From: an uncultured SAR86 cluster bacterium
GTDB taxonomy: Bacteria; Pseudomonadota; Gammaproteobacteria; Magnimaribacterales; D2472
DNA length: 64,000 bases
NCBI GenBank assembly: GCA_902627055.1
Contig: CACOHS010000001.1
Location: forward strand, 186,001 to 250,000
Direction: 5' to 3'
Shown piece by piece: positions 29,263 to 58,657 of this stretch. A model generated the notes under the pieces. That model saw only the letters and a list, made by a program, of their open reading frames with translations, made no database searches and was not told where the DNA came from. The position numbers were made by a program, and so were the translations under genes. Within the stretch, counting starts at the first letter, position 1. Each line of letters starts with the position of its first letter.

Positions 29263-29267
29263 GTAGT

Positions 29268-29440
29268 TGACTGGTTCATTCGCTAACTTATCGAGATTCT
29301 TTGAACCGATAATATATTTAAAGGTGATTTTCCACTGCTGTTGTTGTGCATTACCATCAAGGGAAGCCTGATGCAGTATGAGCTTCACCACCTGAGCTTT
29401 CGGTTCAGGTAACGATAAGTAGCGGTGAATTGGTTTTTTA
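29268..29440 (+). ncRNA. ssrS: 6S RNA
   Basis: zapA-[here]-fau synteny; nested pairing: ACTGGTTCATTCGCT(29270-29284)/AGCGGTGAATTGGT(29421-29434) with one bulge, CTTATCG(29287-29293)/CGATAAG(29413-29419), TGAACCGA(29302-29309)/TCGGTTCA(29400-29407), GGTGA/TCACC, central-region hairpin CATCAAGG/CCTGATG; no convincing ORF. Ends approximate. Confidence 0.87.
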
Positions 29441-53812: not shown

Positions 53813-55800
53813 TTTGCAGTTAGCTTCTTGACTTGACTGACAATATTGTCGACTGTGAAGCCAAACTCATTCATTAACTCATTTCCTGGAGCACTTTCTC
53901 CAAATGTTTCCATGCCAATTACAATATCATTTAGATTTAATAGACAATACCAAGAATTAGGATGTAGAGCCTCAACTACGAGTTTTGGTATTTCAGGGTC
54001 GATAATACTGTCTCTATAGGCTTTATCTTGTGAGACAAATTTATCAAGGCAGGGCATAGAGACAACATTGGCTTTTAAGCCTTCTTTTGCAATTGTTTTA
54101 GCTGCCTCGATAATTAACTTAACCTCACTTCCTGAACTAATCAATGTAATATCAGCTTTATCATCAAAAGATAACAAATAACCTCCTTTCTCAATCAACT
54201 CTATTTGTTCTTTTGATCTCTCAATAAAAGGAAGGTTTTGTCTAGACAATATTAAACTATGAGGGGTTCTTTTAGAGCTAATTGCTTCTTTCCAACTTAC
54301 GGCAGTTTCTATAATGTCTGCAGGTCTCCAATTGTTTAAATTTGGAGTTGCTCTTAATGTAACAAGATGCTCTATAGGTTGGTGGGTTGGGCCATCTTCT
54401 CCTAGACCAATGGAGTCATGAGTATATACAAAGATATTTGGTATCTTCATAAGTGCTGCTAATCTAACAGCATTTCTAGCGTAATCCATGAAAACTAAAA
54501 ACGTTCCGCTGTATGGTTTTATTCCACCATGCAGGACCATTCCATTTGTCATTGCAGTCATGCCAAACTCCCTAACTCCGTAAAATATGTGATTTCCCTG
54601 TGGGCTCTCAGGAAGCATTTCAGTGCTGACAGAAGAAAATGTATTATTAGAGCCAGTTAAATCTGCAGATCCTCCAACAAGTTCTGGAAGTTTTTCACAA
54701 AAATAGTTTAAACATAGTTCAGATGCCTTTCGAGTAGCTATGTCTTTTTTATCACCTTCAGATAATTTATATATAAAATCTTTATAAGTATCTTCAAAGT
54801 TTATTGGTAGTTCATTGTTGATTACTCTTTTCAGTTCCTTAAAAGACTCAGGATGCTTTTCAGAATAATCTTTCATCAGCTTGTCCCAGGATGCATTTAG
54901 TTCAGCGCCTGCGACTTTACCATCCCACTCAGATTTAATTTCATCAGATATATGAAATGGTTCGTGATCCCATCCAAGCTCAACTCGAGTCTTTTTGACC
55001 TCATCTTCACCTAAAGCAGCGCCATGGACGCCAGATGTTCCTGATTTATTGGGCGAGCCGAAACCAATAATTGTTTTGCAGCAAATCAAAGTGGGACGCT
55101 CAACATCTTTCTTCGCTGTATGAATTGCCTCTAAGACTTTCTCAACATTATGTCCATCTACCTCCAATACTTGCCAGTTGTAACTTTCAAATCTTTGCCG
55201 AGTGTCATCAGTAAACCAATTGGTTATTTCTCCATCAATCGATATTCCATTTTGATCATAAAAACAAATTAATTTTCCTAAGCGGTGAGTTCCTGCAAAT
55301 GAACAAGCTTCATGCGAAACTCCCTCCATCAAGCAACCGTCACCTAAAAATGTGTAGGTAAAATGATCGATTGGTTTTAACTCGTCATCTTTGTTGAACC
55401 TGCTTGACAACATTTTTTCAGCTAGCGCCATTCCAACTGCATTTGCAATTCCCTGTCCCAATGGGCCAGTAGTTGTTTCTACACCAATCGACATATCAAG
55501 CTCTGGGTGACCAGGTGTTTTGGAGCCTAGTTGTCTAAATTTTTTTAAGTCTTCTATAGAAAGATCATAGCCAGTTAGGTAAAGCAAACTGTACAAGAGC
55601 ATTGATCCATGACCGTTTGAAAGTACAAACCTATCTCGATTGAACCAAGTTGGATTTTGAGGATTATGTTTTAAGTTATATTTCCATAAAGCCACTGCGA
55701 TGTCGGCCATGCCCATTGGCATTCCTGGATGACCGGATTTGGCTGTTTCAACGGCATCGATTGATAAAAACCTTATAGCGTTAGCAAGCTCTTTGTGCAT
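53809..55800 (-). CDS. tkt: Transketolase
   Basis: AIRFLSIDAVETAKSGHPGMPMGMADIA; FLGDGCLMEGVSHEA; GLGEDGPTHQPIEHL. Confidence 0.96.
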   Translation of the reverse strand: MHKELANAIRFLSIDAVETAKSGHPGMPMGMADIAVALWKYNLKHNPQNPTWFNRDRFVLSNGHGSMLLYSLLYLTGYDLSIEDLKKFRQLGSKTPGHPELDMSIGVETTTGPLGQGIANAVGMALAEKMLSSRFNKDDELKPIDHFTYTFLGDGCLMEGVSHEACSFAGTHRLGKLICFYDQNGISIDGEITNWFTDDTRQRFESYNWQVLEVDGHNVEKVLEAIHTAKKDVERPTLICCKTIIGFGSPNKSGTSGVHGAALGEDEVKKTRVELGWDHEPFHISDEIKSEWDGKVAGAELNASWDKLMKDYSEKHPESFKELKRVINNELPINFEDTYKDFIYKLSEGDKKDIATRKASELCLNYFCEKLPELVGGSADLTGSNNTFSSVSTEMLPESPQGNHIFYGVREFGMTAMTNGMVLHGGIKPYSGTFLVFMDYARNAVRLAALMKIPNIFVYTHDSIGLGEDGPTHQPIEHLVTLRATPNLNNWRPADIIETAVSWKEAISSKRTPHSLILSRQNLPFIERSKEQIELIEKGGYLLSFDDKADITLISSGSEVKLIIEAAKTIAKEGLKANVVSMPCLDKFVSQDKAYRDSIIDPEIPKLVVEALHPNSWYCLLNLNDIVIGMETFGESAPGNELMNEFGFTVDNIVSQVKKLTAK

Positions 55801-55905
55801 CTTTTTTGCAAATAATTTAGAACATATTAATCATAATATGTGGCTTGGATTTTTTATAGATAAATTTGTGTTTATTTAACAAAACTAATAAAATTTTTAC
55901 ATACA

Positions 55906-56027
55906 AAAGTGATTTGTTCCTGCTTGCATACTCAAACTGCTAAATAGGACGCCTTACTGAGGTGGAAAAATAAACAAAATATAAATTTTCCTCCATAAAA
56001 CTAAATTATTAACTGTAGAGGAAAATT
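55906..56027 (+). promoter_or_regulatory. metK 5' leader: candidate SAM-responsive (SAM-II/SAM-V-like) element with SD-sequestering hairpin
   Basis: GTGATTTGTTCCTGCTTGCA ... GCTAAATAGGA resembles the SAM-II/V core with TCCT/AGGA possible pseudoknot; AATTTTCCTC (55984-55993) perfectly complementary to GAGGAAAATT (56018-56027) covering the SD; GGTGGAAAA (55961-55969) can compete for TTTTCCTCC. P1 stem of the aptamer is weak (AGT/ACT only). Confidence 0.45.
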
Positions 56028-57179
56028 ATGAGTTATATATTTACATCCGAATCTGTTTCAGGAGGACATCCTGATAAAGTGTGTGATCAAATATCCGATG
56101 CTGTTTTGGATGCTTACTTATCGGAAGATCCAAATAGCAGAGTGGCTTGCGAGACTATGATAAAAAATAACATGGTGTATATAGCAGGCGAAATAACTTC
56201 CCTAGGAAGTCCTGATCTAGAACCTGTTGTAAGAAAAACAATTAATGATATTGGCTACAACTCGGATGAATATGGATTTAATGGAGATACGTGTGAATTC
56301 ACAAATCTAGTTTTTGAACAATCACCTGACATCTCTCAAGGTGTTACCGAGGGTGAAGGAGAAAACCTTGAACAAGGAGCTGGAGATCAGGGACTGATGT
56401 TTGGATATGCATGCAAAGAGACAGAATCATTAATGCCACTTCCAATAGATCTTTCTCACAGATTGGTAAAAAAACAAGCAGATGTAATGAAGAGTGGAGA
56501 AATAAAATGGTTACGACCTGATGCTAAGAGTCAAGTCAGTGTAATTTACTCCGATGATGGAAAAACAATTGAAGGCTTGTCTGCGGTCGTCCTCTCAACA
56601 CAACACGATGAAGACGTTAGCCAGGAAGAAATAAAAAGTGAGGTAATGGACAAAATTATCAAGCCAATAGTTCCAGAGGAATGGTTGCTTGATTCTACAA
56701 ATATATTTATTAATCCAACTGGAAAATTTGTTATTGGTGGACCTGTTGGTGATTGTGGTCTCACTGGAAGAAAAATTATTGTAGATACCTATGGAGGCAT
56801 GGCCAGACACGGGGGCGGAGCTTTTTCTGGAAAAGATCCATCCAAAGTAGACAGATCTGCAGCATATGCATCAAGATATGTTGCTAAAAATATAGTTGCA
56901 GCTGGACTTGCAGACTACTGCGAAATTCAAGTTTCATATGCAATTGGTGTAGCCAAGCCTACATCAATACATGTAGAAACCTTTAATAGTGAAAAAATTT
57001 CTAAAAAAGCGATTGTTAAAATTGTTGAGGATGAATTTGATCTCAGGCCAAAAAGTCTAATTAATATGCTGGACTTAAAAAGACCTATATATCTTCCAAC
57101 TGCAGCGTATGGTCACTTTGGAAGATCAGATATAGAGCTTTCTTGGGAAAAAACAGATAAAGCAGCTGATATTTCATAA
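56028..57179 (+). CDS. metK: S-adenosylmethionine synthetase
   Basis: [57 protein letters not shown]. Confidence 0.97.
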
Positions 57180-57262: not shown

Positions 57263-58657
57263 ATGGAAAACGATTATAAAGTCGCAGATATGAGTCTTGC
57301 TGAATTCGGTAGACGAGAGATTTCTCTTGCTGAAAATGAAATGCCTGCATTAATGGCCTTAAGAACAAAATATAAAGATGCTCAGCCTCTTGCAGGTGCA
57401 AAAGTTATGGGTTGCATTCATATGACTATTCAAACAGCTGTACTTATCGAGACGTTGGTAGATCTTGGTGCGGAAGTGCGTTGGTCTGGTTGCAATATCT
57501 TCTCCACTCAAGATCATGCTGCTGCAGCTATTGCAGCCGCAGGTATTCCTGTTTTTGCTTGGAAAGGTCAAACAGACGAAGAGTTTGACTGGTGTATTGA
57601 ACAAACAATAGTTAAAGATGGAAGTCCTTGGGATGCAAACATGATTTTAGATGATGGTGGCGATCTAACTCATATGGTTCATTCTAAATTTCCTGAAATG
57701 CTTGAAAGCATTCATGGAATTTCTGAGGAAACTACTACTGGTGTTCACAGATTAAAGGCAATGCTTGAAAAAAATGAGCTTAAAGTGCCAGCAATAAATG
57801 TGAATGACTCAGTTACTAAATCAAAAAATGATAATAAATATGGATGCAGACATAGTCTAAATGATGCAATTAAAAGAGGTACAGATATGTTTCTTTCATC
57901 CAAGAAAGCATTAGTAATTGGATATGGAGACGTTGGAAAAGGTTCCGCTTTAAGTCTCGCACAAGAAGGAATGATTGTAAGAGTCGTCGAATCTGATCCC
58001 ATATGTGCTATGCAAGCCTGCATGGACGGTTTTGAAGTGGTGTCTACATACAATAACGGAGTCGTAACTAGAGACGTGAAAGATATAAATATGGCAGTTC
58101 TTGAAGATACTGACCTAATAGTTACAACCACTGGAAATGTGAATGTTTGTGATGAGGCAATGTTGCGCTCAGTAAAAAATACCGCTGTCATATGTAATAT
58201 TGGTCACTTCGATAATGAAATTGATACTCAATTCATGCGAGACAAGTGGTACTGGGAAGAGATTAAGCCTCAAGTGCATAGAGTGTTTAGAGATACTTCT
58301 CCATCGGACACGCCAGACTTACAAAGTAAGAATTACATCATTCTTTTAGCTGAAGGCAGGCTAGTCAATCTAGGAAATGCAACAGGCCATCCCAGCAGAA
58401 TAATGGATGGATCATTTGCTAATCAAGTTTTAGCTCAGATGCACTTGTATAAACAAGGTTTTGCAAACGTCAATGATGCTGATAAGCAAAATGAAATGAT
58501 AACTGTTGAAGTTCTTCCAAAAAAATTGGATGAGGAAGTTGCAGAGCTTATGGTTCAAGGCTTTGGTGGAACAATAACCAAACTAACTGGTGAGCAAGCT
58601 GATTATATTAATGTTCCTGTTGATGGCCCATTTAAAGAAGAAGAGTATAAATACTGA
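57263..58657 (+). CDS. ahcY: Adenosylhomocysteinase
   Basis: [77 protein letters not shown]. Confidence 0.97.

Follow-up and report, generated by a model that had tools for sequence, protein, structure and literature searches.

A predicted SAM-II-type riboswitch ahead of metK in a SAR86 bacterium, apparently inherited from a metF–metK operon

The metK leader of a SAR86 cluster bacterium (genome G000) probably acts as a SAM-II-type riboswitch that lowers metK translation at high SAM; this confidence covers the front end, an aptamer followed by a hairpin (H), which is common to the two downstream routes discussed below. The leader lies in the window, the stretch of 64,000 nucleotides of this genome that was analyzed, where a 227-nt gap separates the start of the divergent tkt gene (55800) from the metK ATG (56028). 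The preliminary description of this DNA was exact in all its sequence statements: the gap, a perfect 10-bp inverted repeat (AATTTTCCTC, 55984–55993, and GAGGAAAATT, 56018–56027) whose 3′ end abuts the metK ATG, an alternative pairing of 8 bp with one T-T mismatch between GGTGGAAAA (55961–55969) and TTTTCCTCC (55986–55994), and a SAM-II/SAM-V-like core at 55909–55949 (GTGATTTGTTCCTGC...GCTAAATAGGA with TCCT/AGGA). Its proposal of a SAM-sensing metK leader is well supported, above its own rating. Two features had been missed, hairpin H (55950–55964) and a promoter-like sequence (55866–55894). The complete set is:

55866–55894, plus strand: promoter-like TTGTGT-17 nt-TAAAAT, proposed from comparison with related metK leaders.
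55908–55910, plus strand: P1 5′ strand AGU, pairing with ACU at 55930–55932; the closing pair 55910–55930 is paired in 35 of 37 cells.
55911–55915, plus strand: third strand GAUUU, which lines the SAM pocket in SAM-II and SAM-V; invariant in model A4 and equivalent to U8–U10 of SAM-V (PMC6061858).
55918–55922, plus strand: P2a 5′ strand UCCUG, pairing with UAGGA at 55945–55949 in the predicted minimum-energy fold.
55924–55928, plus strand: P2 5′ strand UUGCA, pairing with 55938–55943 (UGC-U-AA); equivalent to U19, U20, and G21 of SAM-V.
55930–55932, plus strand: P1 3′ strand ACU, covarying with the P1 5′ strand.
55938–55944, plus strand: P2 3′ strand UGCUAAA, with a bulged U equivalent to U47 of SAM-V and the A50 equivalent (correspondence from PMC6061858); TGCTAA is invariant.
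55945–55949, plus strand: P2a 3′ strand UAGGA, identified by covariation and the minimum-energy fold.
55950–55964, plus strand: hairpin H, CGCCUU-ACU-GAGGUG, abutting P2a; its 3′ arm GAGGUG (55959–55964) is the apparent former metF Shine-Dalgarno (SD).
55961–55969, plus strand: anti-sequestor 5′ arm GGUGGAAAA, overlapping the H 3′ arm and pairing with 55986–55994.
55984–55994, plus strand: sequestor 5′ arm AAUUUUCCUC together with anti-sequestor 3′ arm UUUUCCUCC; this stretch aligns with the metF 5′ end TATGAATTTTATCCTCCA and probably derives from metF codons that have decayed.
56018–56027, plus strand: metK SD, equal to the sequestor 3′ arm GAGGAAAAUU, pairing with 55984–55993.
56028–57179, plus strand: metK, S-adenosylmethionine synthetase, an open reading frame of 383 aa with orthologues in 54 of 61 relatives.

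The metK of relative G010 is 99% identical to that of the window. An adenosylhomocysteinase-like gene (57263–58657) starts 83 nt downstream of metK, possibly forming a SAM-cycle operon, and the window also holds a 6S RNA (29265–29440, 60.2 bits). The promoter-like layout recurs in the metK leaders of related genomes as TTG(T/A)GT-17-TAA(A/G)AT; it has only 8 of 12 consensus matches and falls below the reporting level of a simple promoter scan. If used, it would start the transcript about 6–10 nt upstream of the aptamer. Terminator-based control of metK was rejected, as no terminator was found within 55800–56030.

The preliminary description had proposed comparison with the SAM families of Rfam. 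Searching all families against 55700–56150 gave SAM_alpha (RF00521) as the best sensible match (22.1 bits, E = 0.0078, whole model aligned), below its gathering score of 36 and with three of the six SAM_alpha P1 pairs non-standard in the window (cmscan). The same aptamer was the best match in a single-family SAM_alpha search over its own genome (E = 0.0056). The second and third matches of that search (L002 and L003; E 0.037 and 0.59) fall within long reading frames and were taken as chance, as were the matches of KRAS_3UTR, MicC, and snoZ119 to the 55700–56150 stretch, which were below their cut-offs. The SAM-II long loop family (RF01726) scored 15.3 bits against a gathering score of 44. Within 55700–56150 neither SAM-V (RF01826) nor SAM/SAH (RF01727) gave a match at E ≤ 10; SAM/SAH was rejected on this ground, and SAM-V on this ground and on its different architecture.

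The architecture is that of an H-type pseudoknot, in which the L1 strand pairs with the 3′ segment. P2a (UCCUG/UAGGA) comprises 5 bp, and the link between P1 and P2 is only 5 nt (CAAAC), leaving no P3 stem-loop of the SAM-V kind. P1 has 3 bp versus 5–6 bp in the Rfam consensus, and the gathering scores of both RF00521 and RF01726 are unreached. Judged by these features, 55907–55950 is a predicted pseudoknot of the SAM-II/SAM-V type, and it is assigned to SAM-II by architecture because it lacks a P3 stem and has a P2a of five pairs. The aptamer identity, previously regarded as unsupported, is thus the strongest part of the reading, and the earlier alternatives of a divergent SAM-V or a new SAM-sensing class both give way to SAM-II.

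In the metK leaders of the genus, the string AGU-GAUUUG-UCCUG-C-UUGCA-U-ACU-NAAAC-UGCUAAA-UAGGA is kept nearly letter for letter. When 85,462 species genomes were scanned for the pattern, 35 loci emerged, for the most part from SAR86. Of 204 genomes of the order, 39 contain the element at E ≤ 0.01 according to core model R1, and in about 30 of these it scores 50–74 bits. The adjacent gene is metK, metF, or metY at most loci inspected. Across 39 distinct sequences, in an alignment that was fitted to the model and favors P2, 92.7% of cells are paired as the pseudoknotted structure requires. These sequences contain 33 two-sided changes (shuffle mean 10.1; 0 of 500 shuffles as high) and show a covariation of 0.238 versus 0.108 in shuffles; the signal is lost when partners are slid by one column. 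In an independent MAFFT alignment of 25 sequences, two pairs covaried, of which P1 and P2a each hold one. The closing pair 55910–55930 occurs as UA, UG, CG, and GC, and P2a shows compensatory changes at 55918–55949 (UA, CG, UG, AU, GC) and 55919–55948 (CG, AU, UA, GC). The core P2 pairs hardly vary, with UUGCA invariant in nearly all 39 sequences, and contribute conservation rather than covariation. The covariation in related leaders that had been suggested as a check is therefore present in P1 and the pseudoknot. P1, seen earlier as a weakness because it consists of AGT/ACT only, is indeed 3 bp long but covaries at its variable pair.

Beyond the order, model A4, built from SAR86 sequences only, recognized the SAM-II domain of Pelagibacter SAM-II/SAM-V tandems at 35–38 bits. 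This domain lies shortly upstream of an Rfam-confirmed SAM-V (68–70 bits), before homocysteine methyltransferase genes, and such a SAM-II domain by itself responds to SAM (PMC11508383). Reciprocal recognition applies to this Pelagibacter domain only; canonical alphaproteobacterial SAM-II was not reached by the narrow SAR86 model. Wider searches with the SAR86 model found, besides the window, one weak match in 369 genomes of the class (L151, with no SAM-II-like gene context by eye) and one weak match in 399 genomes of the phylum. No core was seen in the metK leaders of families f2–f4 (L041, L042, L044–L058), where gaps are short or upstream genes overlap.

Several variants were observed along the way. 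By eye, and in numbers too few to count, the metK leaders L026, L029, and L038 carry a core with an all-A-U P2a, and a downstream UUUCAC with the potential to pair with the third-strand GUGA. In another SAR86 family, L129 (G201:C1:80184-80226) and L131 (G194:C6:130847-130889) have SAM-II cores with P1 UGCC/GGCA and P2a UAAC/GUUA before metY. G009 carries a second SAM-II-like element, L124 (G009:C1:137292-137337), which likewise has an H hairpin; the ORF of ∼23 codons that follows it may be what is left of a different gene under such control. SAM-II-like cores that Rfam missed at E ≤ 1 occur in Planctomycetes (L059, L065, L088) and Opitutales (L067, L092); L059 and L088 precede genes resembling PLP-dependent sulfhydrylase/cystathionine synthase, and an ATG lies shortly downstream of the two Opitutales cores.

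The ligand pocket can be compared position by position with that of SAM-V, where U8–U10 form the third strand, U19:A49 and U20:A48 form triples beside the sulfonium, U47 pairs with the adenine of SAM, and A50 secures the amino-acid end; the SAM-II structure can be overlaid on it almost exactly (PMC6061858). The window equivalents are GAUUU 55911–55915, UU 55924–55925, U55941, A55942–A55943, and A55944, so that every SAM-contacting position (U8–U10, U19, U20, U47, A48, A49) is present, and an A also stands where SAM-V has A50. Among relatives the pocket does not vary at its U, UUG, and CUAA positions, and no pocket change occurs in the window. We infer that SAM is the ligand. A few pocket changes can switch the ligand of a riboswitch, as known for SAM-I variants that turned to spermidine (PMC10853860). 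A comparable drift of this aptamer to another ligand is very improbable: the pocket, in contrast to that of the SAM-I variants, is unaltered at every position, and the associated genes are metK, metF, and metY. At the A50 place a few relatives (L018, L031, L032, L039, L043) carry a G that faces C. Inosine at this place severely reduced SAM-V binding, and by analogy these copies may bind SAM more weakly.

Hairpin H, which directly follows P2a, was significant against shuffles (p < 0.05) in 23 of the 28 leaders examined, and its arms change in step (CACCU/AGGUG, CGCCAA/UUGGUG, UUGCC/GGCAA, GCGUC/GGCGC). It is better conserved than either of the switching stems described earlier and is the platform feature that is conserved SAR86-wide. 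In SAR86 the element precedes metF–metK or metK. The next gene in L016, L022, L030–L032, L037, L060, L061, L068, and L093 is metF (MKISYEFYPPK and similar), and in these leaders the 3′ arm of H serves as the SD of metF, only a few nt upstream of the ATG. Family f4 has the same kind of core before metY, followed by a CUCC...GGAG hairpin that hides the metY SD. The SD thus sits in the stem adjoining the aptamer in the metF relatives and in f4 metY, whereas in the window only the old SD does so and the metK SD lies in a separate stem. Since metF and f4 metY leaders share this layout, a SAM-II core with a stacked hairpin and a hidden SD was probably the ancestral device in the order.

MetF of this kind was detected in 14 of 108 family genomes. 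It was absent from every searched genome with a solo-metK leader, G000 included, an absence that rests on incomplete genomes (G000 is 88.65% complete) and holds in all solo-metK relatives searched; in G000 the Pfam MTHFR model found only one divergent 24-bit protein. Explaining the metF state on the metK tree takes five changes, of which well-supported branches force at least three, and the window subclade (L009, L010, L011, L014, L015, L033) has support of 98/94. Leader L043 is a near-perfect fusion in which metK stands directly behind H. In the window metK begins about 65 nt behind the old metF SD, because this genome lacks that metF. The spacer aligns with a metF start (ATATAAATTT--TCCTCCA against ATATGAATTTTATCCTCCA; 10 of 300 shuffles were as good), which is suggestive of a decayed metF fossil but not proof of one; sister-subclade spacers mostly gave no convincing alignment signal for such a fossil. 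By these comparisons, the window leader appears to be inherited from a metF–metK operon whose metF was lost.

Such an origin could also mean that the aptamer is a relic that lost its regulatory effect together with metF. The arm UUUUCCUCC does align with metF codons, and CCUCC-like codons pair with any SD, so that the 10-bp repeat could have arisen by chance from the metK SD and what remains of metF codons. We consider this improbable, since the core, P1, P2a, and H are kept with co-varying changes in matching solo-metK leaders of the genus, and the arms of the repeat are conserved while their flanks vary.

In the riboswitch model that we prefer, SAM would lock the P1/P2 pseudoknot (55908–55949). 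P2a (UCCUG/UAGGA) runs directly into H (55950–55964), and stacking would stabilize H; closed H would then hide the ribosome-binding GAGGUG in its 3′ arm. This platform would have been made for a metF–metK operon with the H arm as metF SD, and loss of metF in the window lineage would have left metK ∼65 nt behind the old SD. Computation yielded the core with its covariation, H, and the operon history; repression, stacking, and the choice of route we infer. Counting against the model are the low Rfam score, the short P1, the distance of the metK SD from H, and the absence of the SD-hiding stem from the sister subclade.

Two routes could carry the signal from H to metK. The first is a co-transcriptional relay, in which H would be a hinge closed by SAM: with H open, GGUGGAAAA would capture UUUUCCUCC and leave the metK SD free (ON), and with H closed, AAUUUUCCUC would capture the metK SD GAGGAAAAUU (OFF). 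We regard this platform as plausible, at somewhat below even chances. Downstream of H, the leader has a more stable fold than its dinucleotide shuffles (z = −3.6, p = 0.010), and the minimum-energy fold contains P2, P2a, H, and the sequestor. Folding gave the anti-sequestor a value of 0.85–0.88 in transcripts ending before the metK SD. In the window transcript ending at the ATG, sequestor and H reached 0.91–0.95 and the anti-sequestor 0.00. All 8 of 8 anti-sequestor pairs are kept in all five window-subclade species, and the five nearest species keep 10, 10, 10 (with wobble), 8, and 9 of the 10 sequestor pairs. Sequence conservation is higher in the arms (18 of 20 columns) than in the flanks (22 of 37 columns; Fisher p = 0.018).

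Against the relay, the anti-sequestor falls to 0.00–0.02 at full length in the window, L010, L011, and L015, and is substantial in L014 only (0.91 ending at the ATG, 0.45 at +30). Because of these near-zero values the relay could work only kinetically. Neither alternative dominates in L011, the sequestor is broken in L014, and the conservation stems from five closely related species with no compensatory change. The two mutually exclusive stems, previously described as a well-supported switching platform, therefore both exist but form a weaker part of the case than the aptamer, as the anti-sequestor is favored only before the SD is transcribed and both stems are confined to the window subclade. 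Conservation in related leaders likewise extends to the core but not to these stems: neither sequestor nor anti-sequestor was found in the sister subclade.

The second route is initiation at a distance, in which the old metF SD GAGGUG in H would recruit the 30S subunit for the metK AUG ∼65 nt downstream, and closure of H by SAM would block loading. This we hold to be possible, with rather more doubt than belief. A close precedent exists in S. meliloti metA, where translation from a start codon 74 nt further on needs the SD in the SAM-II riboswitch (PMC9373788). Both solo-metK subclades retain H though it no longer stands directly before a gene, and some sister leaders (L017, L020) have almost no proximal metK SD. 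This route would serve the sister subclade too. The window subclade, by contrast, has a good proximal SD, and with the relay ON the old SD would be base-paired. In a more far-reaching reading, which we rate as rather unlikely, the SAM-controlled SD hairpin orphaned by the loss of metF now governs metK ∼65 nt downstream, with decayed metF codons recruited as a switching strand; if true, a gene deletion turned an ordinary SAM-II switch into one acting at a distance.

SAM riboswitches of another class also occur in SAR86. A SAM-I/IV riboswitch in the window's genome (L173, G000:C3:29695-29789; 69.5 bits) stands just before a homocysteine S-methyltransferase-like gene, and because of it this genome probably uses two SAM riboswitch classes. 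In L125/L178 (G073:C2:9674-9851) and L126/L179 (G080:C14:1784-1961), a SAM-II core, an intrinsic terminator, and a SAM-I/IV riboswitch (62 and 61 bits, above the cut-off) are arranged in tandem before an OmpW-like gene, and a P2a strand of the SAM-II core can form an antiterminator. Two SAM classes stand here in series, one apparently transcriptional and one near the start codon. SAM-I/IV precedes OmpW-like outer-membrane genes in several SAR86 families (L174, L175, L178, L179, L180, L182), which suggests SAM control of an OmpW-like porin, an unexpected target.

No title or abstract in the open-licence literature that combines SAR86 and riboswitches describes the element. With it, an abundant uncultured ocean lineage gains a predicted SAM-feedback circuit on its SAM synthetase, and SAM-II, in a variant missed by Rfam thresholds, would reach metK and metF as targets within an order of Gammaproteobacteria. 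The natural series from the metF–metK operon through a near-perfect fusion (L043) to a long decayed spacer (window) suits the question of how a translational riboswitch keeps control after deletion of its regulated gene, and bears on whether the start-at-a-distance mode of S. meliloti metA is more general.

Among known systems, SAM-II (RF00521, RF01726) shares with the window element the H-type pseudoknot, the GAUUU third strand, the UUGCA/UGC-U-AA P2 with its SAM-contacting positions, a P2a of 4–5 bp, a P1–P2 loop without a stem, and methionine/SAM genes downstream. The window element differs in its P1 of 3 bp, its short P1–P2 loop, and scores below both gathering scores, and the SAR86 element in its control of metK and metF in a gammaproteobacterial order and in an SD that sits in a hairpin of its own, stacked on P2a. 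Among about 200 proteobacterial genomes surveyed, only Rhizobiales and Rhodobacterales had SAM_alpha, mainly before metY (PMC4239095); an older statement places SAM-II in Alpha-, Beta-, and Gammaproteobacteria (PMC2704228). SAM-V (RF01826) has the same ligand-binding core, occurs in marine bacteria, controls translation, and also has a short P1, but the window has no P3 between P1 and P2, a P2a longer than 2 bp, and no Rfam match to this family. SAM/SAH (RF01727) of Rhodobacterales likewise controls metK but does not match the window. The SAM-II domain of the Pelagibacter bhmT tandem has core letters nearly identical to those of SAR86, but a SAM-V aptamer follows it and the gene is another one. 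In S. meliloti metA, the SD is also controlled by the SAM-II pseudoknot region and the start lies far downstream (74 nt; about 65 nt in the window), but there AUG1 and a terminator lie between, whereas the spacer of the window is probably decayed metF.
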